64,000 nucleotides of DNA from Ricordea florida. Taxonomy: Eukaryota > Cnidaria > Anthozoa > Corallimorpharia > Ricordeidae. The notes beneath the pieces were generated by a model that saw nothing but the letters and a program-made list of their open reading frames with translations, had not been told where the DNA came from and did no database searches. Shown piece after piece: positions 3,001 to 63,093 of the stretch (its first letter is position 1; each line of letters opens with the position of its first letter). The stretch spans positions 8,373,477 through 8,437,476 of the forward strand of contig OX453284.1 in NCBI GenBank assembly GCA_949710005.1, given 5' to 3'. The position numbers and the translations under genes are program-made.

Positions 3001-5411
3001 ATCATGATACACATTAATTAAAAAAAATAACAAAGACATGTTCACTTTCAAGAAATAATCACTTTACCAGGCAAGAATTAGACAAACAGAAAAACCTGGG
3101 TGTATATGAAGTACTACATAACACCAATGTACATCAAGCACAAAGATAGTGAGAAATACTGCAGTATTAATATCAAGCTAATCAATAATTGCTATAGACC
3201 GAACGCATAAATGGCGGCCAAAAATGTATTCTTTTGTTTATATGCTAATTAAAGTCACTAACCTCGCTCTCAAGCAACAATTCTTTTGAATTATGTCCAT
3301 GCAAACGATGCTAGTGAGTCTAATTAGCACATAAACAAAAGAATAATTTTTTGGCCGCCATTTATGCATTCGGTCTATTGCAATAATATTACCTTGCTAT
3401 TCATAGCTGCTGAATAAGGACCCAAAAAAACTCCTGGTACGATTTCCTATAAAATTGAAATGAAAAATTATGTAATTTCAAACATTCAGCCAAAGTTGTG
3501 GTTCACTCAAGACAGGTAGGATCCCAACAGTGATTGAAAAACAAGAGGTTCATCAACCTTTTAATTAATAACTTAGATATTACCTGCATCTCTCTTCTCA
3601 TTGAATATGCCCAGTCCTGGAAGAAATTATAAGATAAAATAAGAACAAGGCAGTCACCAGTTTAAACATCTCTATAACCCTTAGTGTTGTGTGAGTGTCA
3701 GTGAGCAATTTTCAAAACGATGAAGTGCATAAATGCAAATATTGATGTATCAAGGTTGCTTGGATTTTAACACTTATAAGGTCATTGCCAGCAGTTTGGT
3801 TCTAAAGAACCAGACAATAGAAATTTTAATGCTTTAGACAATCAGAAATGGGCAAGATGAAGCAAAGTACATGGCTGGTAGTGCTCACTTTAAGGTGCAA
3901 TCAGCTCAACATAACTTCCATCTGGTCATCTGGGACTGGTGGATTTTCGTGTTGAGTGAGCAATTTTCCTCATGACTTGCATGATAGACAAGCCAAGCAA
4001 ACTACATGGGGTATCAGTATTATGGGGGTAGTTTCTAAAGAAACTATAGTGCTGCGGCAGTGGGAAATTGGAACACAAGAAATTGGGATAAACAAACAAG
4101 TTAATAAAGTAATTTGTACCACCGTAAGGTAAAAGAAGGGGGTGCTGACATTTCAAGCATTAGCCCTTCGTCATTTGCTCTGATGAAGGGCTAATGCTCG
4201 AAACATCAGCACCCCCTTCTATTACCTTATGGTGGTACAAATTACTTTGTCAACTTGTTTGTTTATCCCAATTTCTTGTACATGGCTGGGGTATCAGTCG
4301 GCCTAATGTACTTTCGCTGCAATCATTGACTGGAAGATATCTTTGGGCAGTAATGTTTTGCCTACAGGGCATTAAGAAACTGTTCATCCTAACACTTCCA
4401 GTTTCAGTAGCTCCAGATTTATCATTCAAAAGATCTAAGCAAGAAGGCAAGTGAAGTTGGCAAGCAATTAGAGTTGCTTTCCCAAAGGACATCTAACCCT
4501 TTTACCACCAAGAGTGACTTTACAGATTTTACTCTGTCTAACGCCAAATGATCTCACTCTTCAAATGGAGACCCTTAGGAGGTAAATAGGGTTAAGCTGC
4601 AGTAGTGTTTCCAGAAGACTCTATGCATGACTACTGCTGGCTACAATTGTAAAGGTGTTGTGAGAAACAAATTCTCATAAACCTACAATAACAAAAAGAT
4701 AATAAGCAAGTACATTTTACACTGCTGTTGTTGTCAATTTATTTATCCCCTGCCCTTTTGGCTCATCCTCAGTGTAAAAACCTGTTATGTTTACAAGTGA
4801 TGTAGAAAAAAGAAGCCAAAAGAGACAAAACTATAGAGACTAAGAATATAACAGGGAAAAGAAAACAAAGAAAAACTTCATAGGTTTTTACACCGAGGTA
4901 AACCCGGGCCTTTTGGATCTTGATACATGTAAATGTACACATAATCCACTTTGAAGACATACAGAAAGTTTTCGATTTTGATTTCATGTTAGATTTTTTA
5001 CATATATAGTCTCAGAGTATTTAGAAAGAGATGAATATGAGGATAAAACATTTCATTCGTCGAAGTCAAGTCAACTTTAAGCGCTATAGGAAACAGAATA
5101 TAATAATAGTCGTGAACAGGAGCCCAAAATGACAACTTTTCCTCGTTGTTTAATAAAAATGGTGTTGCTAAATGCCATTTAGTCCCTAACTAAAGTGATC
5201 TTTAACAACGTAGAACGGTTGTTAATTGTAATTTCGAAATCAAATTTCGTCAATTTCCGACCAGACACTCGATGAAACTAACAGCGAAATAGCTCATCAA
5301 ACAAACGACAACACGAGCTGTGAGTAATCCACTTACCACTACTTCGTCTTTGTTAGGAATATCTGGAAACTCGAGTGTAGGTTGACACTCGGGACTCCCA
5401 GCAGATTGCAT
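1..5411 (-). CDS. STYX: STYX pseudophosphatase (3' end outside window)
   Basis: Serine/threonine/tyrosine-interacting protein, a catalytically dead dual-specificity phosphatase that binds phosphoproteins. Visible coding exons on the minus strand, 5' to 3': 5411-5337, 3616-3584, 3446-3393, 2938-2841, 1819-1759, 1530-1494 and 727-688. All have AG acceptors and GT donors, and the phases chain without a break. Readable landmarks are MQSAGSPEC at the start, DWAYSMRREMQ, EIVPGVFLGPYSAAM, VCIRQNIEANF, YLVLDVADSPTENII, and KVLVHGNAGISR in the signature loop. The usual active-site Cys of HCxxGxxR is Gly (HGNAGISR), as in known STYX proteins, so the protein should bind but not hydrolyse phosphate. The last visible exon ends in phase 2; the following alpha-helical C-terminal segment was not found in bases 1-687, so the gene is cut by the window edge. 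It shares a promoter region with FKBP3. Identification rests on remembered family sequence and is strong. Confidence 0.93.
33..180. repeat. GTAATCAAA inverted-repeat element
   Basis: CCGGTAATCAAACATCTTTG...GAATAAATAAGCAC on the left is mirrored by CGTGCTCATTTATTCAAAAC...CATTTGATTACC on the right. A second full copy is at 28801-28965. Partial copies are at about 11735-11815 and 25065-25135. Confidence 0.6.
333..424 (+). repeat. MITE family B fragment
   Basis: Shares GGGGTAGTTTCTAAAGAAAC, AAACATCAG and ACGGTGGTATAACTTAATTT with the longer copies at 4021-4280 and 38691-38885. Intergenic or 3' intronic in STYX. Confidence 0.6.
2040..2340 (+). repeat. GC-rich hairpin MITE, copy 1
   Basis: The core (2078-2200) is a near-perfect palindrome: GAGGTCCGTACTGTAAAATA with its complement, and ATGGCCCAAGCGCGAAGCGC pairing with GCGCGCGGGCCATAAATC. 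A second small inverted repeat follows (AGCGGGCCGTACAGTGAAGT and complement). The whole unit recurs inverted at 14405-14700. It lies downstream of STYX exon 5, within the intron. Confidence 0.75.
3193..3380. repeat. Inverted-repeat MITE beside STYX exon 3
   Basis: TATAGACCGAACGCATAAAT and GGCGGCCAAAAATGTATTCT at the left pair with the complement at the right (ATTTATGCATTCGGTCTATT). The arms are about 60 bp. The right end is about 12 bp beyond the donor of STYX exon 3 (exon end 3393). Confidence 0.75.
4021..4280. repeat. MITE family B, long copy with hairpin
   Basis: Arms TTTGTACCACCGTAAGGTAA and GGGGGTGCTGACATTTCAAG pair with CTCGAAACATCAGCACCCCC and TACCTTATGGTGGTACAAAT around a CCCTTCGTCATTTGC centre. 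GGGGTAGTTTCTAAAGAAAC marks the outer part. In STYX intron 1. Confidence 0.7.
4494..4595 (-). repeat. TAACCCTTT MITE, copy 1
   Basis: Begins TAACCCTTTTACCACCAAGA and ends AGGAGGTAAATAGGGTTAA. Interior GACTTTACAGATTTTACTCT matches, inverted, the copies near 10.3 kb. Confidence 0.65.
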
Positions 5412-14700: not shown

Positions 14701-16052
14701 AACATTATGATTTTTCTGATACCCGCCTCAGTCTATCCGCTTACTTCTCGGAGTGTAAAGTTACACCTCAAAATCTTCCTCGTCAGAATTCTAAAGTTTT
14801 CCTCCAATATTCCGATAAAAATTTCCGAAGTTTTCCGAATGTTTCGAACGGCGGTTTCTGTCCAATCCAATCGTACGATTTAACGAGCTCTGGCCACACA
14901 CAAGAAGCGTCGTTTTAACACGCAGAATAGGCCTCTCTTTTCTTAACTTTTTGTAGTGATTGATAATAGTTTTTTGTCCTAATAGCAAAGATTTGTGCCC
15001 AGAAATTATTGTGAGTCAATTTCTGATTAAACGAACGAATATTTTCTCTAGTTCGGCCTCCGTGGCATTGATAGGCATATATAACTTTAACCAAAGAAAA
15101 TGGTTAATCAAACGGATTGCTTACTAAAATAAGCTTCATCGCCGTACGATTTAAAGGGTGCTGCCGTTTTGGACGGTAGTCCTTCTTCAAATCGAATGTT
15201 AGGAATAAGGTGGGGCTAACGCTTGAAACCACAACACCCTTTACATGTTATGTTGGTAAAACTTTCATTGGGGACCTTTCATTTTTTTTACGACGGAGGA
15301 GGGGGCTGGTGTGATTCTGGAAGAACCATTTAAAAATTGTGTGACCCCCCTCAACCTGCCAATCCCCCCCCCCTTGAAGCAGCGATTTCATTGATGGGCT
15401 CCTGTTAAAACATTATGCCATTTAAAAGTATTTTTGGGATGGGCCCCTCGAACGCCGGTTTTTTCGCAAATCCCACCACCCCTCCCCCTCCCACTTCCTC
15501 GTTTGACGACGACTCAACACCGACGCAACGCCAGTTTCCTTAGAACCAAGTCATTTTCACACATATAACTTCAGTTGAACAAAATGCTTGCAAGTAAATC
15601 TTTTTACCAATAAACTGATGAACAAAGTACAGTATGGAAAATACTTTGCATTATTTTTGGTCTCGATGTATTAAGTAACGGTAGTGGACAATGATGGATA
15701 CTTGACACCAGCACTTTGCTAACTAGCGGATACAAATATTTAACGTAATGTAACTTACCCTAGAATGTAAAAATTATCGTACTTCTACCTTTTCTACAGC
15801 CCGAGGCTGTTTAATTTTCGGAATGCATAATTTTGGGATGTAGCTTCTGACATTTTGCCCAGTCTCCCCGAGAATCAAACTTTGGTTCATGCAAGTTAGT
15901 ACAAAACCTACAATGTGGCTCGAACATTTTTGTCTTAATCCTCGGCAAAAGTGACCAAACGTGTGACAATTGAGAAGTTAAAGCTATTTTTTATCACTAA
16001 AACTATCTCAGTTATCCCTTATCCCTAAAATTATTTTGCCAGTTATCTCTTA
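14701..16052. other. FKBP3-Pellino intergenic DNA, first part
   Basis: No gene recognised. It contains a decayed G/C-run repeat (about 15270-15505) related to the element at 51082-51456, and a fragment resembling MITE family B near 15170-15260 (GCTAACGCTTGAAACCACAA). Confidence 0.5.
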
Positions 16053-16314
16053 GGGACGGACCATTAGAAAAGTGATGGGGGGGGGGGGGGAAACAAAAAA
16101 AAATTCATGCAAGGGAAAATGCCAAGAAAAAAAATTCATGCAGAAGGAAGGTCCAATTGTGACTTTTTCACACGTAGTAAAAAAAATTCGTGCAGAGGAG
16201 TTCACCGGAAAAAAAAATTCCTGCACAAGCAGTGAGCGAAAAAAAAAAATTCGTGCAAGCTGAAAATTCCCCACCCCCCCACCCCCGCCCATCACTTTTC
16301 TAATGCTCCGTCCC
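16053..16314 (+). mobile_element. PIF/Harbinger-type MITE, copy 1
   Basis: Inverted ends GGGACGGACCATTAGAAAAG... and the complement GGGACGGAGCATTAGAAAAG. Flanks are TTA (left) and TAA (right). The interior holds A-runs joined to TTCATGCA, TTCGTGCA and TTCCTGCA motifs. TWA 3-bp targets suggest the PIF/Harbinger group. No coding capacity; the glycine-rich ORFs come from the G-runs. Confidence 0.8.
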
Positions 16315-16317
16315 TAA

Positions 16318-29300: not shown

Positions 29301-31611
29301 CAATTGGGGAAACCTTGGCACTTGGAAAGTTAACAAAGCTTTATTTCAAGACTTACCCCTTTCACTCCCAGAAGTGATCAAAATGGAACTTCTCTTTTCC
29401 ATAACAATACAGTGTAAGAAAAACTGACTATAAGAATTCACTATGAAATAATATCAAATTCTCAAAATTTGTTTGCAACAAAATGTATGGTACTCAGTTA
29501 GGAGAATTGCCACTCAGATCTTGGGAGTGAAAGGGTTAAAATAGCTCCTTGAAGTCTCACCCAGTTTGATTACTGATCCCATCGGAACAATTTGGGGCCA
29601 ACCTGAAATATATACGTGATTCATAAGGGTTGTTTTTTGTTATAAAAGAGGAGTTTGTGCGTAGTTTTTCTGATTTTTAAGTTGCTTCAATTCATTTTTT
29701 TTCTACAACAGCACACATCTGGCAGCAGTGCTGCAGGTAAACAGCCTTACGTGTACCTCAAATGTGGCCATGTACATGGCTACCACTCCTGGAATTCACC
29801 TGACATACTTGGTAATGACAAAAGGACGTGTCCCGTGTGCTTACAGGTGAGAAACACGAAACAGCTTACTCCATTGTTCAATAAGGTCACATCTGATGTG
29901 CATGCCATCTTGTTTCGAGTACGTTTGCACTACCATGAATGGAAACATACACATCTCTATAGCATAACATTTACAGTACTCACCTTGAGATTGCATTTCA
30001 CCAAAGGCTAGTACGTTAGGTTTCAACGTTGACACATTGGGTAGTACGGGTTCCCTATCCCTTTGCCGGGGCGGATTTAGGAAAAGAGTGTAAACGGTGC
30101 GCACCCTCCCCTCCCTTCCCCGCTCGAGACGACCTGCAGCTTCCTTTTATAGCTAGTATTTTGCAAAAAAAGAAATACAAAAATAGAAAAAGAGAAAGTC
30201 TATGACTTATTAGTTTTGAAATAAACCATGAATCATAAGCCTTCTTCTTCGTTGTTCGCTTTTAAAATTTGTGTACGTCATCCGTGAGTTACGTCATTCC
30301 TTAGAGGTACGCCCTCTCCTTAGAAAAATACTAGGTGTGCCCCTGCATTGAACGCATGTTACCTCGTTTTCTGATAGCCAAGCCACCACCTACCAGAATA
30401 GGGATCAGCTTACCAAGTTCACTGTACGCAGGAAATATCGAAGCCAATCGCTATATACTGAAGAAATGGTAAACGTGCAGCGTGCTACCATCGAGTTATG
30501 GACGCACGCGGGAGGTTGCTGAACACGCAAGAAGCGTAAGAGATGTCTAGCTTCTTGAGTGCTTAGGAAACTCCCAAGTGCGTCCATAACTCCCTGGCTG
30601 CAAAGCTGCTGCGTTTACCATTTCTTTTATAACATAAGACTTCACAACTTCACAATGTGACGTCAGCATACAAGCCATGGGCAAATGGATCGCGCGTATT
30701 AGCCAATCATAGCGCGCTTTCCCAAAGCTATGTTATATGTTGTAACGCCTTTCTTGAGTTAGTATTGAAAGAATTGATATTCAAGTTAGTAGTGACACGT
30801 TACTTTGTATGTTTTTTTTGTTGTTGTTGTGGTTAGGCCAGTAGTTATGTGCCTTTAACTCTGGGAAGGGAGCCAGCATTTTATCAAGGAGGAACAGAAC
30901 CTACTCATGCTTTTGTACCTTGTGGACATGTTTGTTCCGAGGAAACGGTTCGGTAAGTCGAATGGTTGCATTTTTCGCGGTGTTTCATTCGCTATTATTC
31001 TCCGCTGATCGGCTTCTCTGCAGTTCACGGAATAATTATTACAATACATTGATTCAGGGACTGATTTTCACAAGAAGGAAGTTATGATAAAGAAATTGCT
31101 AGGAAATTGTACGAGATGTTCATTTAAACGCTTGCGATAATCGATGGCATCGTTCGCTCATCGATGTCATCAGTAAGTAATCGATAGGCCACAAAATGTT
31201 TTGTCATTAATTACTCATCGATTTTCCATTGATTATCGCTAATAATTACGGTGCGACTACTCGAACAAAGGCCACCAACATAAATTTTCACTTTTCATTG
31301 ATGTCAGTTATCATCGATTTATTAGGTCTGGTTTTATTCAAGCTCACTGATCCAAAACTGGGCCTGCCCAAGGATAAGCGCATCCCCCAAGTTATTGTTT
31401 TAATCCCATTATAGCGCTAGTCGGCTTTCTAGCAAGTGGGCTCAGTTCATATTCAGCTAAAAAGGGTTTCCATTGTTATGTGTTCAGGTTTTGGCAGCAA
31501 GTTCCTATTCCTCATGGATGTGATGCATTTCAAGCTATTTGTCCTTTCTGTGCTCTTCCTTTGGAAGGCGAAGATGGCTTCGTAAAACTCATCTTTTCAA
31601 GCGACGAATAA
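20365..31611 (+). CDS. PELI: Pellino E3 ubiquitin ligase
   Basis: Pellino family RING-like E3 ligase that ubiquitinates IRAK-type kinases downstream of Toll/IL-1 receptors. Recognised exons: 20365-20477, 21431-21563, 25546-25746, 25918-26100, 26938-27036, 28094-28189, 29712-29846, 30837-30952 and 31488-31611 (TAA). Phases chain correctly and total 399 residues from 20365. Signatures: GALVILG/YNGTLPNGELKRR, IGRSADSKIDFVVMDT, STISRYSCRIVVDRDPP, MDGLTTNGVLLM, IWREISVCGNVYGLR (FHA domain), then LDGSLIDLCGVVLLWRS, SRPQCPVGL, and the C-terminal zinc ligands in YVYLKCGHVHGYHSW, RTCPVC, HAFVPCGHVCSEE and AICPFC. The start is unsettled: the first in-frame ATG is 20386, but the exon is open to its acceptor at 20364 and an upstream exon may supply the start. 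About 34 residues expected before IGRS were not found. Which vertebrate PELI paralogue is closest cannot be decided. Confidence 0.93.
23585..23909. repeat. AGGGGTGACAAATG MITE, copy 2
   Basis: Left end AGGGGTGACAAATGCTGCCT, right end TTACCATTTGCTACCCCT. Same GTCTCGG-rich interior. In the long Pellino intron where an expected exon was not found. Confidence 0.7.
24541..24745 (+). repeat. Uninterrupted copy of the GAGGTCAAGATGGCTG repeat
   Basis: Matches the two flanks of the element at 42755-43110 with no insertion (GAGGTCAAGATGGCTGTATA near the left side, AACAAGCTTGGTCAGTAAAG near the right). It therefore serves as the empty-site form. Intronic in the Pellino gene. Confidence 0.6.
24793..25025 (+). 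repeat. Degenerate tandem repeat, 50-65 bp unit
   Basis: About four units built from AAAATGACCATTAAAATC, GATTTTTA, GTGATGAAAA and GACCTTT recur with drift. Pellino intron. Confidence 0.6.
26458..26556. repeat. (ATT)n microsatellite
   Basis: Imperfect ATT array in the Pellino intron before exon 26938-27036. Confidence 0.9.
27296..28110 (+). repeat. Three tandem copies of the Pellino exon-6 acceptor region
   Basis: A unit with CAGAATTACAG, a T-rich tract, and CTCAGACTATAGA(G/T)GTCAT occurs three times. The acceptor junctions fall at 27345/27346, 28005/28006 and 28093/28094. Only the third continues into the real exon (28094-28189). The first two run into C-rich sequence after the copied exon start. 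The 590-bp element at 27400-27989 lies in the second unit. The spare acceptors are potential decoy splice sites. Confidence 0.75.
27400..27989. mobile_element. hAT5-like non-autonomous element in a Pellino intron
   Basis: Ends CAGGGTGAGACGAAAATG and, inverted, CAGGGCGCGACGAAAATG (16 of 18 match), flanked by the 5-bp duplication TACTG (27395-27399, 27990-27994). Subterminal CGGGCAAG / CTTGTCGGGCTAG motifs occur near both ends. CAGGG ends suggest the hAT superfamily, and a 5-bp duplication fits the hAT5 subgroup; this assignment is inference. No transposase. It splits a tandem copy of the Pellino exon border. Confidence 0.72.
28801..28965. repeat. GTAATCAAA inverted-repeat element, second copy
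   Basis: GTAATCAAATGATTTCGAGT...GGATAAATAAGCATTCG on the left pairs with TTACTTGTGTTCATTGATTC...TATTTGACTACC on the right. In a Pellino intron. Confidence 0.6.
29352..29538 (+). repeat. Long member of the TAACCCTTT-type MITE group
   Basis: Left end TTACCCCTTTCACTCCCAGA, right end TTGGGAGTGAAAGGGTTAAA. Sits 170 bp before Pellino exon 7 (29712-29846). Confidence 0.6.
30462..30626. repeat. Inverted repeat in a Pellino intron
   Basis: AAGAAATGGTAAACGTGCAG and GAGTTATGGACGCACGCGGG pair with CTCCCAAGTGCGTCCATAAC and GCTGCGTTTACCATTTCTTT. 210 bp before Pellino exon 8. Confidence 0.65.
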
Positions 31612-38885: not shown

Positions 38886-39207
38886 AGTGACTTTAAAAGT
38901 CCCATTTTCCCAGGACAAAATCCGGCCAATCTCAATTCTCATTTTACCCTTTCAGGATCCTCCAATTCGGCTAATCTTCACTTTCTGAAAGCTCGCCTCT
39001 TTACAGTCTGCCTTACCAAGCACAGCTTGAGACCGCATTAAACATAACCAGCGGAAACTCTTTCTTTCTCATGCGAGGGAATTTAAATAATGGCGCAGGC
39101 GCTTAACTTCAGGCATAGCGTGCACCATTCAATAATATCAAACTTTTTTATTTGTCTCCGCTTCTTGTGTTTAGAAGCATAATTTTCTCTCATGGTCCTG
39201 TGTAGTC

Positions 39208-42200
39208 ATGAAAATAGACGCCTCAACGGTTAGTCCCACACCGGACGAAGAAAACGACGAGGTTTTAGTGTCAAATTCTGAAAAACCTTTAGAGGAACCA
39301 AGCGTACAAGGGTTGGATTGTGGAGACAATTGTTTGAATGGCATTAAATGGCCGCCCGAGCATCACAAAAAGATATCGAGTAGTCGAAAAGCAGGGCTTA
39401 CTATCAATGGTTTCAGGCGTCTTAATCCAACTTTAGTCACACATGGTGGAAGAACTTTGAAATTGCCTGCTCGCTACATCGAATCAGACTCGGACGATGC
39501 AATTACTTCTCCAAGCAAGTTTCACTCAGGTAAGAAGAAGAGGCGTTCTTCCAGTTCGTCGCGTCGTAAGAGTTCCAAAATTTGCAAAAATGGTAGGACC
39601 AAACCTCTGGAAAGTGATTACTCTAGTTCATCCAAAGACTGTAGCAGAAAAAGGGATGTTTTGTCTTCTAAACCGATCAATGGAGAAAGAACGGAAGTCG
39701 GACTCCAGATTAACCATGATGGCGTTCCGACATTTGGCGTGGTTGAGACTTTGTCAGCATGTTCTTGTTCCAGTAGTCAACCGATTGATCCACTTTCCTT
39801 GAAAAGAAATGTAAACGAGCAGTGTTTGCGTACGGACACCAATAATTCTGTTCAACCACCGAAGAGAAAAGGAAGACCACCTAAGAACTCGAGACCACTA
39901 AAAAATCTTACTTCGATTTCGGTTGACAATCGTTCGCCACATGGCAATTGTGTTACAAGTGCCACGAAAGCATCTCTCGCGTCACCTTCAACTTCAAAAT
40001 TCGGTAAGAAAAGAAAGCTGTCGAAAGGTATACGCAATTCTCAAGACAGTTGTGTTTCATCGAGCAGTGACGAGAGCGAGTCGATGGTGCCGACTCCCAA
40101 GAGAAGGGGTAGGCCGCCAAAGAATTGTTTAGTGAGTTGTGAAACAAAACACAAAATCTTTAGGACACAAAATGGCGTTAGAAAACCTTGGGTGCGGCCC
40201 ATGTTGAAAGCTGTGGACAAACGTTCATTGCTCAAGACTCCTAGAGGTTCTCTAAAGTATTTGCTGGGTTCGCCGGACAAGGTTATGTCGGCAGTGAAGT
40301 CGAAGTTTGTGAAGCTGAACGGTTGTAACCTTGTGCCTTCAAAGGAAACGGAAGTTGTCAAACCTAAACGCGGTCGTCCACCACAGCCAAAATCTGAACT
40401 TTCAAACGATGTCGACGGTTTTGAAAGCGGTGCTTTTCACTTCACGGGAGAGGAAGGCCAAAATGAAGCCATTATACCAACTTTAAAACGCAAATTAAAG
40501 AAGTTAAAACTCAAGAAAAGTGAGGATAAGAGACCCTTAGCTGTTAGGGCACTTAACAACAAAGTTGTTTCACAGCACCTTAAACGAAAAGCTGTTCATA
40601 GGGCCAAAAGAACCCTCAAAGTAAGAAAGCAGCTTGCTACTTCCAAAAGTGAGTGCAAGTTAGATAGTGAAATTGTGGGCAGCTCTGAGGTGCCTCAGAA
40701 ACGTAGAAGAAGAAATAAGGCAGACAAGATTCTTGGAATGAAAAAGAGTTTGTCAGGGACTTATGAGTATTTGATCCAGTGGAAAGATGGAACAAGCTCA
40801 TGGGCGCCATCAAATGAACTGGTTGATTATGAGGTGGACTTTAAGTGTTTCCTTGGTCACGAGGACCAGGAGTTAACTGTTGTCAATAGACTCGCATATC
40901 ATGCTTATTGGAAAGATGACCTAATTCAGCGCCATGGTGACCAGTCTGCAGAAAGCAGATTCCCACTAGTTGATGACTCGGCAGAGCTCCTCTCTTCAGA
41001 AGAAGTGCCAGCTGAGGACTCTTTACATGAGGAATTTGATGTTAGTGATAGACAGTATATCTGCAAAGAGGTTTCTGTTCAAAAGGTGAATGGATGTCTT
41101 CATGTAACTGTCACCAGGACATCTAGTAAACGAAGGAAAATTAATGAGAGAATTTTGGACTCGCTCACTCTTGTTCTGGAGGATGCTGCCACTGATGAGT
41201 CAGATTTTGTTGTCTTAAGTGGTCTTGGAGACGATGACTTTTGTGGTGTGAGTCTCAGTGATATCACAAGATTGCCATGTGAGGATGAACCCAGGAACTA
41301 CAGAAGAGACGTGGACAAAATACGGTAAGTTGATAAGAAATATGGCGTTTTTTGTAATAACATATTATGACAAGAGTAGTGCTTGGATTAAGGTGAAAGA
41401 TGGATTTGTATGATGTGTGATATGCTGAAGCTGTCACAATAATTGTCTTTTGTTGTAACAAATTATGACAGCTACCTGTTTGCAGCAGTTCTTATTTAAT
41501 GGTGGTTGTTTTGAACTTGACAGAATTCAATAGTACTTCAAGACTGCTAGCCAGAAAATGCTCTGTGTTGCTTATCTTCACTTGATTGGGAAAGTAATTA
41601 CTGGTCATTTTTAATACAGTGATAGAGTACACCTGAAGGACAGTTGCTCTTGAGCGTTTGTGAACAAAAACAAGCAGCTTTCAGTTATTGTACATAGACA
41701 TGATCTCTTGTGCTACAACAGCACCTTCCTGGCTTCTTAACTAGTTATCATGGTAACACAATCCTTCCAGTGAGAAATTTTATCTCTTCGACTGGATACT
41801 AACTGCACAATACTACCAACTAGTGACAGAAATATGAGCAAGAGAATGCGATTTTCTTTTTTCCAAACTACAAAATAAACAGCATATTTGGTTTTATCTT
41901 GACCTTTTCCACAATGACTGGTTTTATTTAGATGTTACAAAATTTGACACAACACTTGTGTTAGATCCAACAATGTTTCATTCAGATTCCCAATTTCATA
42001 ACCCCCCATTATTAATATCATTATATTTCTTACCCTATTAAATTAACAGAAGGTTGAGATTATTGCTAAGCAATGTTTGCTCCCTCCTTATAATCTTATT
42101 ATTGTACTTACTTAACTTTCCCTAATGCACACACTCTTCCTCCCCTTATATCCACTGTGCAGTGGTGACTTGTGAACCCATTAAGTTGATGATCCCATTA

Positions 42201-48519: not shown

Positions 48520-49366
48520 GGAGATAACCTAATATCTAAGGGTATCGAATTCCACATCTCCACAATTATATTAAAATAATATATATTATGTCCACTATCC
48601 ACAGCGATTACCGTGAGGGAATAAATATATTACTGCGAAATACTAAAAGGCATTTATAACGTAGAATTAGTATTATGCATTATCTTAAAGGCCTAGCACC
48701 CCTATCTGCATCAGGCTACTCCGTCAATCCCAACTTTTAGCTTTCACTCTTACCGCAATTATATAAGAAAAATTCCAAATTATAAATGTATTTCTTTAAC
48801 ACTGAAATTCCTCTAAACGTCCTCCCATATTTGCATAGGCGTTTTCTGTGTTTTAAATAAAGAATTAATTTTGGCTCATTTGATGAAAATATTTTAGCAT
48901 CCACTCTATTTCTAATTATTAGTTCTAGAAGTAAATTTATTACACATATTAGAAAAAAATACAACACGTAAACGTGTACTGATCCACAAAAACGCGTTAA
49001 ATGCTGTTTCACAATCAGAGCTCAACATTCTCTGGAGGGGGAGGGGGGCGGTTAAAATTTGGGCTAGTGGCATAAACTGGGGGGGGGGTAGGTAATTTTT
49101 GGTTACACGCACTTTCTGGGAGGGGTAGATTTTTCATCTGCCTTAGATGGTTAATAAATCACCGACTCCCCCCCTCCCCCCGCCATAGATAACAAACAGT
49201 CTCCAAACGCTCACTACCCCTGTCGTCAGTACAGGTTTTTCACGCTCAATTCTCGCGCCTTGCATTGCGGCTTTGCCCCTCATCGCTTGTACCATGATAG
49301 TTTGTGCATCGCGCCCCGCACAGAGAGAAACAGGAGAGAGAAATATAAAAAGTACACGCTTTGCGG

Positions 49367-50522
49367 TGTCACAGCGTTTTGGGCATCCCCGCGTTTTGGG
49401 CATCCCCATTCCCATATTACTGCAGCGTTTTGGGCATCCCCCGGTACCCTCCCGGGATGCCCAAATCCCTAGTGTTTTGGTCATCCCCTCCAAAACAATT
49501 TGGGATTTGCGGGAAAATCGAAAACCTTTTAGAGATGGATTCCGCTAAATATACAAATCTGTTCCAGTCTCTTAAAAATAAGGTTTATCCGGAAGGCTTT
49601 ACAAAGCAAGACAAAACAACTCTTAGAAAATTCGCCAAAAAGTTGAGTATGACTCAAAATTAGAGTCCTTGTTCTACGTGGCCAAGGAGAAGGATGGCAC
49701 AGCGCTTCGAAGACTTGTTATCGCCGAGGAAGATAAAACGAGGGTCTTCGAAGAGTGCCACTCTGCTCCTTTTTCTGGACACGCCGGCTGCGATAACACT
49801 CTGAGGAAAAAATCAAAGAGCGGTTTTACTGGCCTGATTACTACAAGGACACGATAGAAATGGTTAGTTACAAATTTTATTTATTTGTCAATGCACCCTC
49901 TTGATCGTGTTTTTAAACCCGCGTTGGTAATCGAATTGTCACCCCACCTCTGGTTATTTCTGATGATTTGAGGCCTCTGTAATTGTGTCACAGCCTTTCC
50001 TGTATCAAGTAGCGCTGCGGGATTAAGTTGTGCAGACCTCAAATGTCATGAAATGAATACTATGAATTCAACACCGCAAAACGCAGTTCTATTCATGTTT
50101 GTCTTTTGATTGCTTTGTTTAGTATTCTTATTTTTGGCTGTTTGGAATCAGACGATCGCAGCTGCCGGCGATTGCGGCATTGCTCGCTTGTAAACAGTTC
50201 TAGTGAATAAAATTGAAAGCTTTGCAAACAATGAAGTGTTGTACATCGAAGCGATGTTATGCGGTTGTAAATTTCAGTTTCGTCATGTTTTGAGCCAACG
50301 TTTACTGCCTATGGGTTTTTTTTTCTGCGCAATTAACCCGGCGAAAAGTGTCAGACGACATAATTCTAACAAGCATCTACACTATTTAGCCGTAAATTCG
50401 TGATTAACAATCCCGACTTTTCCCCAGTCTGAAATAATTTAGGCAAAGTCGAAGCGATCAGCGTTTTGGGCATCCCCCACCGGGGATGCCCAAAACGCGG
50501 GGATGCCCAAAACGCTGTGACA
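49367..50522 (+). mobile_element. Ginger-type DNA transposon, non-autonomous, with integrase-like remnant
   Basis: The ends are inverted copies of TGTCACAGCGTTTTGGGCAT, extending through two GCGTTTTGGGCATCCCC units (49367-49407; reverse at 50482-50522). A 4-bp duplication GCGG flanks both sides (49363-49366, 50523-50526). TGTNR termini and 4-bp duplications are the published signature of Ginger elements, and the cargo fits. Open frames at 49534-49857 encode an N-terminal piece (MDSAKYTNLFQSLKNKVYPE), then RRLVIAEEDKTRVFEECHSA and PFSGHAGCDNTLRK, an HHCC zinc-finger type leader like that of KRBA2/Ginger integrases. Two single-base breaks (about 49658 and 49808) interrupt it. KERFYWPDYYKDTIEM follows, ending at a donor-like GTTAGT at 49861. 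The catalytic DDE core is absent. Confidence 0.85.
49534..49860 (+). pseudogene. KRBA2/Ginger-like integrase zinc-binding fragment
   Basis: Broken coding remnant inside the Ginger-type element. The first frame opens at ATG 49534 (MDSAKYTNLF) and runs to MTQ at about 49655, where one missing A shifts it. The second frame reads LESLFYVAKEKDGTALRR and on to the histidines of ECHSAPFSGHAG. A length change in the A-run at about 49808 shifts it again before IKERFYWPDYYKD. The two cysteines that complete the HHCC finger would lie on a later exon after the GTTAGT donor and are not present nearby. Confidence 0.7.
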
Positions 50523-51081
50523 GCGGTGATCAAGTACCACCAGCGCCGTAGCTAGAGGGGGTCCTGGGCTGCTCGTGACCTCCTTTTCGAGGTGAGCAAA
50601 TAAGATGGGAATGGGGAAAGTAATGTTTGGGTGAATGTAATTTACATATACAACTATTCTGTAGGATAATCATCCTCCCCTCCCCCCACTCGCTCACTGC
50701 TCATCCCCAACAAGTATTTCTAGCAAACCACCTCGTGGATGTAAACGTTACAATCAGGCAAGTACTGTTTGGCACAGTGCGACCACTCCTCCCTTCCTTA
50801 AAAAATCCTAGCTAAGCCCCAAGATCACAAAATGGCACATGATCCCTTAGCGGAACGTTTTTGGTTTATCTCGCCTAGTTTGTCTAGCTGAATAACTGCT
50901 ACCATGGAATAGGAATAGAGGAGAAGAGATTGGATGAGATGAGATTTGAAATTAAACGGTCCGTGAAAAACCAAGCCCAAGTTCTTTGGGCTTTGTCACG
51001 CGTTCCTCCCCTCGTGAACGGAGAAACAAGTGAGAAAGTCCAAGGGCCTTCTGCATAGGAGGCTATGAGCAACATGGCTTA

Positions 51082-51456: not shown

Positions 51457-51976
51457 TTATGTCGCGCTCTGGGTGAATTACCACGCCTCCAAACATATTA
51501 TAAAGCCAGGAAGAGTCAATCTCGCTCCCAGAACCCGTTCCTACTTGTCCTCTCTCTTTCTCTACAACTGGTAAAGAAAACGCGGGCTCTGGTGACCAGA
51601 TTACTGGAGATGAAGCGTGACTTCTATGTATTTAAAGAAGCAGTCTTGTTACGCCTGCACCAGTGGCACGGCTGCAAAAGTTCATTCCGCCCAGTCAGGC
51701 CGGAGAAAGTGGCTATCCTTTTGTAATAGTACAAAGATATGAAGACAACAATGGAGTCTTAGACATTGCTTTTTTGATTTACTTATAAAAAGCCCCATAT
51801 ATACTTTTAATAGTGCCTTAAGTATTATTAAAAGTATATATGCTAGTCTTCTTCAAGCGATGGGGTCAACTGATTCCGGCTCACCATTATGTAGCTGTGT
51901 GGTCTGCTCTGATTTTGTTATTAATCACTCATATGACTACAGACCGGACTCCACTCAGTTCTGTTATCATTACTAA

Positions 51977-52272
51977 GGGACAGACCATTAGAAAAGTGAT
52001 GGGGGGGGGGGGGTGGGGGTGGGGAATTTTCAGCTTGCACGTTTTTTTTTTCGCTCACTGCTTGTGCAGGAATTTTTTTTTTCAGGTGAATCGCTCTGCA
52101 CGAATTTTTTTTACTACGTGTGAAAAAGTCACAATTGGACCTTCCTTCTGCATGAATTTTTTTTTTACCTTCTTCCTTGCATAAATTTTTTTCTTGGCAT
52201 TTTCCCTTGCATGAATTTTTTTTTGTTTTTATTCCCCCCCCCCCCCCCATCACTTTTCTAATGGTCCGTCCC
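51977..52272 (-). mobile_element. PIF/Harbinger-type MITE, copy 2
   Basis: Same family as 16053-16314 in opposite orientation, with TAA on both sides (51974-51976 and 52273-52275). It is inserted next to a fragment of another inverted repeat (51910-51970) that is related to the one at 36462-36610. Confidence 0.85.
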
Positions 52273-52283
52273 TAATTATACTC

Positions 52284-52479: not shown

Positions 52480-53128
52480 ATATTACTCCGCAGATCAAAT
52501 ATATGGAATTTCATATATTCATTTGCATCAATTATTTCTCTGCATATTCAGGACACGACATTGTATCGAGGAACAGTAAGCAAGACGGCTTGCAGCAATT
52601 CGTTGGACACACCGTATCAGGGTCTGAGTTTTCGAGTCACCCAGAGGGTCTGAGTTTTAAGACACCCCATCTTGTTGTTTGTTCTCCTCATCTGTTGGCA
52701 GATAGAGTGCAACATGTTCAGCTCTGGGTGTCATACTATTAAGGTTCTGGATTTGTGTCCAAGTGAGAGTTCCTAAATCAGTAAGAAAAAAAATAATCAC
52801 ATATCACACACATTAAGATCGATGACGTTTTGACAGTCCAAATATCTTCACTACATCTACTGATTAAATAACAACTTTTTTAAATCAATAAAACTTAGCA
52901 TCAAAACAATAGCACATGGAAACATTATTTTGTACTTACAATGTACGCCACATAAACTTGTTGAATTCCCTATCGAGAACAAGAAAAATGCCAGTTTCAC
53001 AATGACATTATGGGATTTTTTGGGGTATATATTTAACACCCGGTAGAGGCAAGAGCTGTCGCAGCGGAGAAGGAAAGATGGAAAAGCTTTGTGGAGGCCT
53101 TAACAATTAATGTGTCAGAGGGCACTTA

Positions 53129-53341
53129 GGGACGGACCATTAGGAAAGTGATGGGGGGGGGGGTGGGGAATTTTCAGCTTGCACGAATTTTTTTTTTCTA
53201 ATGGTCCGTCCCTAAGTGCATGAATTTTTTTTTTTACCTTCTTCTTTGCATGAATTTTTTTTCTTGGCATTTTCCCTTGCAATGAATTTTTTTTTGTTTT
53301 TTTTCCCCACCCCCTCCATCACTTTTCTAATGCACCGTCCC
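53129..53341 (-). mobile_element. PIF/Harbinger-type MITE, copy 3, rearranged
   Basis: Same family, with TTA on the left and TTG on the right. A complete 3' terminus (CTAATGGTCCGTCCC followed by TAA, ending at 53212) occurs in the middle, followed by the rest of an ordinary copy up to a second terminus at 53341. The first 84 bp thus form a mini-element with its own two ends. Confidence 0.75.
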
Positions 53342-54153
53342 TTGGAAGATAGGTAACCGTTGGTTAATATTTAACACCCACAAAATTCCCAAACTTGGCA
53401 AAGCCAGACAAGTCACACACTTTCAAATTTGAGATTCTTGTGGGTATATTCTTAAAATACTCTTAAATATCTAAAATTGGGAACCTGGTAACGCAACTTC
53501 TTCGAACGGCAGGTTATCAAACAGGTCAGCAACTAGAAATGTCTTCACAGTGACATGTAATTCTCCTTGACGACTCACCGCTTGTCTTTACTCGATAACA
53601 AATACAATGTTAGTAGTCACTGAACAAGCCAATCAGTCAACAAACATACTAACTTGCCAGAAACTGCCTGAAAAAAAAAACCTTAGACAAACGGTGGTTA
53701 TCAATTATGAATTCAGTTTTGGCTTTGTGACCCTTTGTCCGTGTCTCGTACAACACGGTGAAAATTTAAGCGTTACTGGTTTTCAAGGATTCTAGAACTG
53801 AAATATCAACATTGTACCATTGTTGTTAAACCTTGGCTAATCGAATTCCATAAGTAATAGTAATGGTTCCAATTACAGCACTACCAGCCCTTCCCATCCT
53901 TCGCTTCTGTTCCTCCCTGATTAACACCTTAAAAACGTTTGTGTTATCCTCGGAGTCTGTTGTCACATTTCAACTTGAGTAATTAATTCTACATAAGATA
54001 CCAGCAAAGTACAGTTTTCCGTCATTCCTGAAGCCACAAATATTTGTTGAGGTGGCTGCATCCTAACCTTTCATTATGACAGACTGAGAGATCTTTAACT
54101 CTAAAGTGGAAACAGTTTTTAAAGGTTTATTTATTTACTGTTCATCGGCGAAC

Positions 54154-56759: not shown

Positions 56760-58023
56760 GGCATAGTCTAAAAGCTGGACTGGACCCTGGACTGGATCCT
56801 GGACTCTGGACTCCAGATTACAAAAAATATCAAAAAAAAATTAAAGTAAAACTGAAAAAAAAAAAATTAAAATTGTTGTTCAAAACACAGGGTTTTTGTT
56901 GCCACATGTCACGTGACACGAGTATTTAATATAAGACATAATGATAATGAATTAATGTGTTTAGCCGTTTTCTAGAATATCACCCAACGCTGCCACCTCC
57001 GGGTAAAAAAAAATAATATAAATAAAAATTGAAAAAATAAATTGAAAAAACAAAAAAATCTATATTGAATAAAGATACTGGGTCGCAAGCATGGTTTTTT
57101 GTGTATAACACCGGGTTTTTGCCTCACCATAAGATGGGGGGTGGGGGCGGTGTGGAGGAGGGAGGGTGCATGCACATTTTTGGCAAAGTGTCAATATAAT
57201 CGTCAATGATCCAAAAAGGCATCGGCCTAACAGTTACCTTGAAAGATAAACACTTTTGTTGTACGGGTAATAGAAATGTCGCGGTTGTTCTGTCTAAACT
57301 GGTGCGTGCCGACAAGAGGTGGTTATCATATCTTAACTACAGTTTCTACAATAAAGAAAATCGTTCAGTTGACACCCAGAGCATATGTACTGGTAAATAT
57401 TGTAATAGTCAGGGCTCCTGTAATAGTATGCTAACGTATAGTCACGTTTTAATATTAAAACTGTTGCAATATATCCTACGACGATCATTTCAATATGTTT
57501 AGGGGTTTGCTAACAATCAGCAATTGTTTTCCATCATCCACCCCTTTGCACCATAGATCACAAAACAAAACACTTTGCCAAAAATGTGCATGCACCCTCT
57601 CTCCTCCACACCGCCCCCACCCCCCATCTTATGGTGAGGCAAAAACCCGGTGTTATACACAAAAAACCATGTTTGCGACCCAGTATCTTTATTCAATATA
57701 GATGTTTTTTCAATTTCTTTTTTCAATTTTTATTTATATTATTTTTTTTTACCCGGAAGTGGCAGCGTTGCGTGATATTCTAGAAAACGGCTGTAACACA
57801 ATAATTCGTTATTATTATGTCTTATATTAAATACTCGTGTCACGTGACATGTGGCAACAAAAACCCTGTGTTTTGAACAACAATTTTAATTTTTTTTTTT
57901 TCAGTTTTACTTTAATTTTTTTTTTTTTTTTTGATATTTTTTGTAATCTGGAGTCCAGAGTCCAGAGTCCAGGGTCCAGTCCAGGGTCCAGTCCAGGGTC
58001 GAGTCCGGCTTTTAGACTATGCC
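56760..58023. mobile_element. Mutator-like foldback element with 430-450 bp inverted ends
   Basis: A long left arm (56760-57190) reappears inverted as the right arm (57571-58023). The termini are GGCATAGTCTAAAAGC and its complement, flanked by a perfect 9-bp duplication ATTTTCCCC (56751-56759 and 58024-58032). Long inverted ends with 9-bp duplications are typical of Mutator-like elements. Each arm carries subterminal GGACTGGACC/GGACTCTGGA type repeats and the palindrome TGTCACGTGACA. The 380-bp centre (57191-57570) has one open frame (57206-57502) with no recognised domain and no transposase. Confidence 0.85.
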
Positions 58024-60036: not shown

Positions 60037-60843
60037 TAATTTCTCGGAGAAAAGTTATTTCGTGCCAGGTGTCAAAAATTCAAAGTGTACAATAGCTCTT
60101 TTTCACTTATAAAAATATTCCTAGATATCTGGCAAACAGTAAATCTAATTATTATGATTACAGTGAATCAAATTCAAATCCCAACAACTACGTTTTGCTG
60201 CGAATACAGTTGTGAACTATGTAAAGAGTTTAATCGGGTTGCGGGTTACTGGCCAATTGCTGTTTGTCAGTCGCGCAGTAGATTGTTAATTTTAGAGATC
60301 ATCCGTAAGCTTTCAAGTTTTTTACTGTGCATTTTTTTCCTTGTTATTCGAAAATATTGGATGTTCGTCAGGGCTAAAAACGTACTACTAACTGATTGAA
60401 GTTATTAAACTTGAGATGGGTGAGACCTCCGTGACGACCTCCGCTGTGACGACCTGACACGTCATGGAACGCTATAGCCAATAGCAAGAGAGCCCAGAGA
60501 CTGTGATGAAATACCATGGTATATAACATCGCCTACTATTGGCCAAAGATATTCAAGGCATGATAGATCTTTCCTCTCACTTAGGTCAGAAAATTAATAC
60601 AATGCTACAACAAGCTGATGATAAAGTTGTAGTAGAGTCTGTGGAGCCATAGCAACGTGAATGGAGTGAATTAGGTGAATGAAAAGCGTTCATAAATGCC
60701 ATGCATGGTGATTAAGAGGGCCCAACTGAGAGATAAGGCTTTTCGTATTAGCAAGCCAGGTTAACTTGAGATCCAGAACGTTTTTTCAATGACGTCATTG
60801 CATATCAATTAAAATAGGATTGTATTTAAGATAAATCTGCTTA

Positions 60844-61119
60844 GGGACGGACCATTAGAAAAGTGATGGGGGGTGGGGAAAAAACAAAAAAAAATCATGC
60901 AAGGGAAAATGCCAAGAAAAAAAATTCATGCAAAGAAGAAGGTAAAAAAAATTCATGCAGAAGGAAGGTCCAATTGTGACTTTTTCACACGTAGTAAAAA
61001 AAATTCGTGCAGAGGGTTTCACCTGAAAAAAAAATTCCTGCACAAGCAGTGAGCGAAAAAAAAAATTCGTGCAAGCCGAAAATTCCCCACCCCCCATCAC
61101 TTCTCTAATGGTCCGTCCC
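60844..61119 (+). mobile_element. PIF/Harbinger-type MITE, copy 4
   Basis: Same family and orientation as copy 1. Perfect TTA duplication (60841-60843, 61120-61122). Interior TTCATGCA/TTCGTGCA units in A-rich context are well preserved, suggesting fairly recent insertion. Confidence 0.87.
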
Positions 61120-61345
61120 TTACTTTCAACTTTTTGCATAATGTAGGACCGCATATTATCCGCAAGAACGTTAAGGGTATTAAATTTTTTTCTAGTGAAC
61201 AAGGCTGTGATCCAGTTCTGACCATGCGTAGTTTTTTTTTGGAGCTCGGTGGATGATCATGTTCGATTTGTTAATAATAAGTTCTTTTAAATCATCTCTT
61301 CAGTCTTTTAAGTATTCCATAATATGCATTTTCTTTTCTATTGTA

Positions 61346-61736: not shown

Positions 61737-63093
61737 TGCTTTATTTGCATGACCGCATCATTTTACAGTATTGCAAAAGCATGCATATGACAATCAAAAT
61801 ATAAAACAAACAGCACTAATAATAATCTTGAAAAATTCAGTTACATTACTAACAATGAATCACGTATTTTCATACAGGAGGCGGAAACAAACTTCATAAC
61901 TAACTTATTTATATGTTTTTTCGAATTCATTATCAGTTTTATGCTTTCTGGAGATGATTTCTTGTCAAAGTCAGGTATTATTCGATTGATTTTATTAATA
62001 AATGCCTGTCTCTGTACTGAGTATTTGTTACATTGAAAGGGGAAATGAATCTCATCTCCAAGGGACATAATCTATTTTCTCTTGGCAAATGATCGATTTG
62101 GTATCGACCATGTTCAATCATAAGTTTGTGATTACTTATTTTAAATTTAACAAAATTCTGTCGTTCGTCATAATGTCTTAGCTGGTAGAGATAATCAGAT
62201 GTAGAATATTCATCTTTAAAAGTTTTATAAAATTCTAGTTTTTTTTTTTTTAATTTTCAAGGCTGTGCCGCCAAAAAGATAGATATTTATTTGGTATATC
62301 GTCTAATTTTATCATTATCTAAAGATTCAGCATCTGAACTGGTTAGATTGTATTGTCCAAGCATGTTTATGAAATTGGGAAAATATCCGGAATTTTTCAT
62401 AGAATGTATATTCTTTGACATAAGGAAAGACGGTTTGACTATAGAGTCATTATCTTTGTTGTTGAGGTAAACAAAATATTTCATAATTTTCTGATTTATC
62501 GGGATTAGCAGCGGCAATCTATCAAGTTCAGCTCTGCAAGCTATGTTAGAGGCCTTATTGTTAACCTCTAAGTAACGTTTACAGATTGGGAATACCATGG
62601 TGTCAAAAATTTGGGATGCAGTATTAGGATTAAGTTTGTTAAGAATTGTCCGCTTCCGAATACTAGAAAACGCGTGAAGGGCCTTTTCTTTTAAGTGTTC
62701 GAGTGCAAGTGTAAAGTTTGCCTTTGGAGTTAAAGTGTATTCTTGGACAATTTCAATTGACTCACTGCTTATGTTGAATTTGATGTCAATAGATTTTTTG
62801 GTGCGTTTCTGGAATATCATAATTTTTGTTTTCTTCGGATTAATTTTTAGTTTCCATTTGTCACAATACAAGGAAAGCGCATTTAAACAGTTCTGTAATC
62901 CAGTTTTCGATCTTGATAGAATAACTAAATCATCTGCGTACAAAAGTGAATTTATTTTTTTCCCATTTGGAAGAACAAATGGGTCAGATAAGGTGTTTTC
63001 AAATAAAATGTGGTAGATTGTTTAAATAGAGGTTAAATAAAAGAGGGCTTAAAATGCAGCCTTGACGTACACCTCTGGAATATGATCAAAGTA
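61737..63093 (-). mobile_element. Non-LTR retrotransposon (LINE) 3' fragment with reverse transcriptase remains
   Basis: Read leftward from 63093, the sequence encodes reverse transcriptase motifs GVRQGCILSPLLFNLYLNNL, then FENTLSDPFVLPNGKK, LLYADDLVILSRSKTGLQNC and WKLKINPKKTKIMIFQK, and a thumb/C-terminal region to KLMIEHGRYQIDHLPREN, CPLGDEIHFPFQCNKYS and INRIIPDFDKKSSPESI (to about 61850). The catalytic YADD is intact. The frame is broken at about 63010 and again at the T-rich stretch near 62240-62290. The 5' half (endonuclease and RT fingers) is missing, which is the usual 5' truncation. An AATAAA lies near the 3' end at about 61740. The clade is not certain; a CR1/Rex-like lineage is possible. 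Confidence 0.85.

Follow-up and report, generated by a model that had tools for sequence, protein, structure and literature searches.

The window analysed here, a stretch of 64,000 nucleotides, contains a transposon-like element of 1,156 bp at positions 49367-50522, with a copy of GCGG on each side. The element ends in perfect terminal inverted repeats (TGTCA...TGACA), carries arrays of a 17-bp motif, GCGTTTTGGGCATCCCC, towards both ends, and encloses the broken N-terminal part of an integrase gene. Its features are given below in window coordinates.

49363-49366, no strand: left 4-bp target duplication, GCGG, by direct reading; the same 4 bp lie beyond the opposite end
49367-49407, + strand: left 41-bp terminal inverted repeat, TGTCACA and two tandem 17-bp motifs; complementary to 50482-50522 at 41/41 positions
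49374-49488, + strand: left motif array (sites 49374+, 49391+, 49425+, 49453-, 49472+); an array is also present at a second locus, L002
49535-49651, + strand: leader piece 1, with a possible start codon and YP (codons 49586-49591), the first part of a YPYY-like motif; from translation, the motif read by eye from its description in the part of PMC2836005 used here
49651-49809, + strand: leader piece 2, in another frame, with FY (49672-49677) as the second part of the YPYY-like motif and the two H2C2 histidines (49759-49761 and 49780-49782); from translation and PF17921
49809-49862, + strand: leader piece 3, in the third frame, stopping short of both H2C2 cysteines; from translation (frame open to 49904) and PF17921
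49863-49868, + strand: splice-donor-like GTTAGT adjoining the end of the leader; from the sequence and the alignment with L002, its use as a donor being putative
49869-50460, no strand: interior without recognisable coding content by Pfam scan; possibly the remnant of an intron, joined by deletion to the 3' part
50461-50515, - strand: right motif cluster (exact sites 50461+, 50482-, 50499-)
50482-50522, - strand: right 41-bp terminal inverted repeat, the exact reverse complement of the left arm (41/41)
50523-50526, no strand: right copy of GCGG, by direct reading

Terminal repeats and motif arrays

In 30 shuffles that roughly kept the dinucleotide composition, the longest perfect inverted repeat per shuffle measured 13-16 bp, compared to 41 bp in the element, and chance was rejected as the origin of the repeat. 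The window holds 37 perfect inverted repeats of at least 18 bp with a span of at most 3 kb; that of the element ranks fourth among them by length, and is the only one of the 15 longest with identical 4-bp flanks. The inverted TGTCA...TGACA ends and the GCGG duplication of the original prediction are confirmed to the base.

The first and the last 41 bases of the element share one composition, TGTCACA and then two tandem copies of the 17-mer. With at most 3 mismatches allowed, GCGTTTTGGGCATCCCC has eight matches in the window and 8/8 lie within the element, near both ends and in both orientations, just as had been predicted. Six of them are exact (the first three sites of the left array and all three of the right cluster), and two are imperfect (49453-, 3 mismatches; 49472+, 2 mismatches). 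Shuffled sequences gave a mean of 0.05 matches, and 0/100 reached eight. On the right side, the motif at 50461+ opposes that at 50482- over a 4-bp gap, and the strand is able to form a hairpin (50455-50522; -25.6 kcal/mol, z -6.36, 0/200 shuffles equally low).

The 17-mer found one single-motif match in viral_contigs (L001), which is taken as chance because no array occurs in the 601 bases around it. Searches of viral_contigs with the paired motif, with two DNA words conserved in the leader and with a degenerate end gave 0 matches each, and a 23-bp element end gave 0 matches in genome_contigs.

A broken integrase leader

Behind the left end lies what reads as a single N-terminus, similar to that of Gypsy-like integrases, which has been broken twice and is spread over three overlapping pieces in three frames. 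Joined across the two frame breaks, the leader matches the Pfam family Integrase_H2C2 (PF17921, cut-off 25.5 bits) at 1.1e-11 and 45.1 bits, covering profile positions 4-46 of 59. All single-frame pieces score under the cut-off (E 3.4e-4 to 0.028; piece 2 alone 5.6e-4, piece 3 alone 0.028, and 49797-49904 0.0081). The zinc-binding leader that had been proposed is therefore real, but amounts to half a domain, as the His-His half of the H2C2 zinc finger is present in the joined leader and both cysteines are missing. The likeness to KRBA2 proposed along with Ginger is putative; the name KRBA2 does not occur in the 8 listed of 164 papers from a literature search. The YP and FY residues stand at the place expected for YPYY, in a reading made by eye without a reference alignment. 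A PDB search with the leader returned six distinct sequences at E <=1, the best being the N-terminus of Ty3 integrase, a weak match (E 0.014, query 20-107). The leader protein gave 6 pattern stretches and 0 relatives in viral_contigs.

A Pfam scan of the stop-to-stop frames of at least 25 aa over 49868-50460 (20/20) returned nothing beyond the leader piece. Outside the leader, none of these 20 frames matched a DDE core, GPY/F, OTU or Ulp1 in Pfam, which upholds the earlier view of a copy that has lost its catalytic domain; the lack of these parts is as expected of a deletion derivative. Neither a tRNA scan nor an Rfam scan of the window gave a match.

A second locus

The joined leader was also used to scan genome_contigs, where 20 pattern stretches included one relative. 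This second locus, L002, is JAAXHI010000390.1, a contig of 5,051 bp filed under a MAG of Candidatus Poribacteria, isolate Plut_88885. The presence of an animal-type transposon with a donor-like site among sequences binned as bacterial suggests that L002 is probably eukaryotic host contamination of the MAG, and the whole contig (1-5051) probably is eukaryotic. Its GC content is ∼49% (N counted in length) compared to 33-44% in the window, so that its host may be another organism. The contig also holds a tandem repeat (1474-2589) and, at 8-1465, an open frame resembling a helicase (AAA_30, 1.6e-9).

L002 shares the left end, the motif array, the leader and the donor-like site with the window element. 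Its left end begins at base 4552 with TGTGA, is preceded by CCTC, and agrees with the left arm of the window at 37/41 bases. This identity inside the TGT boundary compares with 24/100 outside it, and for the 200-bp flanks 49/200 shuffles reached or exceeded the similarity score. The similarity starts at TGT, which supports a mobile family bounded on the left at this point; at the level of sequence comparison, L002 confirms the left boundary independently. The array of L002 has six sites with 1-4 mismatches in the order + + + + - +, compared to five on the left of the window element (+ + + - +). With the limit raised to 5 mismatches, six matches lay elsewhere in the window, beyond the element, and four in bases 1 to 4,540 of L002; given this background, the two L002 sites with 4 mismatches carry little weight when taken singly.

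At the protein level the leader of L002 is 80% identical over query residues 5-110, and its DNA is 88-89% identical to the window in two stretches. The alignment runs through GTTAGTTACAAATTTTA to the last base of the contig, with the donor-like site kept. The L002 copy is degraded: the stretch around the ATG of the window is absent from the alignment, and SQ takes the place of YP. The leader also contains an 80-base N run. Over 63 comparable codons, from which four codons past a frame break were left out, 6 silent and 12 amino-acid-changing codons were counted, with 7, 5 and 10 differences by codon position; the counts do not point to a reading frame under selection, and purifying selection on the leader was rejected. 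A two-row alignment gave 100 stretches and 0 relatives in viral_contigs. Further copies with the same ends had been foreseen, and the left end, array and leader do recur at an unrelated site; the right end lies off the contig, so that one of the two joint ends is seen there.

Other features of the window

A large fold-back occupies 56775-57996, with inverted arms of several hundred bp within which runs of 111 and 71 bp match perfectly; its ends are rich in TGGACTC/GAGTCCA repeats and its flanks are without an identical 4-bp duplication. Four places in the window (16048-16317, 51972-52275, 53124-53344 and 60839-61122) carry a dispersed element that has CTTAGGGACGGACCATTAGAAAAGTGATGGGG at its inverted ends and contains A/T-rich units of 31 bp. 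An open frame of 717 aa with basic-rich stretches (39175-41328) has no Pfam match at E <=0.01. The window further contains, on the minus strand, a reverse-transcriptase fragment (62287-63021; RVT_1, 6.3e-11). A frame resembling an exon (29646-30011) encodes a Pellino RING domain (4.2e-15), by which the host can be recognised as an animal.

Discussion

With a probability of about 0.8, we take the element to be a Ginger1-like DNA transposon of the cut-and-paste class, residing in an animal genome and reduced by deletion to a non-autonomous derivative. As far as sequence features can tell, the ends, the repeat length, the GC-rich duplication and the YPYY-like leader point to Ginger1 over Ginger2. 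The Ginger-type transposon of the original prediction thus stands with its exact ends, 4-bp duplication and H2C2 leader, and is narrowed to the Ginger1 group, but the published Ginger1 targets do not include GCGG and the core is missing, which is why we call the element Ginger1-like and not Ginger1. Other points count against this placement as well: CCTC before L002 is likewise off the published targets, SQ replaces YP in L002, the YPYY motif was read by eye, the right end and the duplication fall outside L002, and no full-length copy was found among the contigs scanned.

We infer that the short element was moved in trans. A fuller copy elsewhere would supply the integrase-type transposase, which may bind the paired 17-bp motifs within and beside the terminal repeats as its putative sites, cut at the TGT/ACA ends, and join these ends to the target by 4-bp staggered cuts that would leave GCGG at each side. 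The internal deletion most likely extended from intron 1 as far as the 3' region. Perfect arms and a perfect duplication beside a twice-broken, core-less gene suggest that the copy moved after being shortened, and intact ends around such a gene fit a copy moved in trans. By our own arithmetic, perfect arms of 41 bp are still compatible with a divergence of up to ∼7% at the 5% level, so a recent insertion after decay is not proven.

The timing of the deletion could have been different, with an autonomous copy inserted whole, losing its core in place, and never mobile as a short element. A single copy is in view, and the leaders are degraded in both the window and L002, as they would be if such decay were common in the family; identical arms and a perfect duplication around a gene that is twice broken and lacks its core speak against it, weakly because 41 bp is short, and we regard decay in place as a less likely course that still carries some weight. 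The arrays might also be a captured host satellite or regulatory repeat instead of transposase sites, and the left sites do differ in number between the window (five) and L002 (six), as in a small tandem repeat. Two units form most of the terminal repeat at each end, however, and all eight window matches at up to 3 mismatches lie within the element, which makes a captured repeat unlikely.

Derivation from Ginger2/Tdd, or from a separate lineage of integrase-type transposons, would accommodate the GCGG duplication outside the published Ginger1 targets and the loss of YPYY in L002, and there is no DDE core from which to build a tree. Ginger2 prefers AT-rich RTATAY targets and has no YPYY in the account of PMC2836005 used here, in contrast to the all-G/C duplication and the YP...FY leader read by eye at this locus, and we judge this origin quite improbable. 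A solo LTR left by a Gypsy-type retroelement would have TG...CA ends and could have a duplication of 4 bp. It is disfavoured by the 41-bp perfect terminal inverted repeats and by the integrase leader inside the element, and we give it next to no credence; to our knowledge, LTRs do not have perfect terminal inverted repeats of this length. Our estimates for these alternatives overlap, as they concern different steps.

With the non-autonomous Ginger1-like derivative as the preferred reading, the element taken alone is one more decayed copy of an animal transposon whose kind is already known. L002 adds a second locus, and with it a testable family whose left boundary is known. It can be speculated, though we doubt it, that the two loci represent a Ginger1-like lineage of marine animals with ends built from paired 17-bp transposase sites, in which the number of sites varies, the strict NCGG/CCGG target rule of Hydra has been abandoned, and short copies are mobilised in trans. 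Ginger elements have their enzyme in common with retroviral and Gypsy integrases. Ends, target sites and motif arrays from a new host would therefore help to explain how an integrase acts as a cut-and-paste transposase.

Comparison with known systems

In the open-licence literature searched, no paper was found that brings Ginger together with DNA transposons, Acropora and Cnidaria; of two papers pairing the word with scleractinian corals, one has it in the author name Gingeras. Ginger1 elements, according to the parts of PMC2836005 used here, have TGTNR ends, terminal inverted repeats of ∼40-270 bp and 4-bp GC-rich duplications, which in 112 Hydra elements are CCGG (75%) or CCGT/ACGG (24%); duplication lengths for Ginger1 and Ginger2 are given likewise in the consulted part of PMC10045372. 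The Ginger1 protein has YPYY (∼40 aa) immediately before its zinc finger, followed by H2C2, DDE and GPY/F, its gene has 0-4 introns, most families encode OTU or Ulp1, and elements are 2.6-7 kb long (PMC2836005). The window element resembles this description in its TGTNR ends (TGTCA, and TGTGA in L002), 41-bp repeat and GC-rich 4-bp duplication (GCGG on both sides, in one copy), and it has half of an H2C2 finger after a YP...FY stretch read by eye, in a gene that putatively bore an intron. It differs in its target, which is GCGG in the window (with CCTC before the left end of L002) and neither CCGG nor CCGT/ACGG, in its length of 1.16 kb, and in being without DDE, GPY/F, OTU and Ulp1. The 17-bp motif arrays are a further difference, the word 'subterminal' being absent from the main text of PMC2836005. 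Non-autonomous Ginger copies with the same ends as their relatives are described there from B. floridae and N. vectensis, so that this kind of element is already known.

Ginger2/Tdd shares TGTNR ends, the H2C2 finger of which half is present here, repeats of ∼50-180 bp and, in metazoan families, the 4-bp duplication, and it likewise has a short family, Ginger2-1N1_NV, of 252 bp with 52-bp repeats (PMC2836005, as above). It differs in its AT-rich RTATAY target and in lacking YPYY in that account, whereas the joined site in the window is TTTGCGGTGAT. The CMITE elements of Acropora are also short, non-autonomous inverted-repeat elements of corals, but as presented in the portion of PMC2872659 used, they have TTAA duplications, repeats of 13-14 bp and a link to piggyBac, and are unrelated to the window element. 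Imagin, a Ginger1-derived crustacean gene, has an N-terminus of YPYY and H2C2, comparable to the YPYY-like motif and half zinc finger of the window element, and resembles it in its loss of catalytic function and in a multi-exon origin, which is putative for the window element; in the consulted part of PMC12863088 it is a conserved host gene under purifying selection and without inverted repeats, whereas the window holds a broken element with intact ends.
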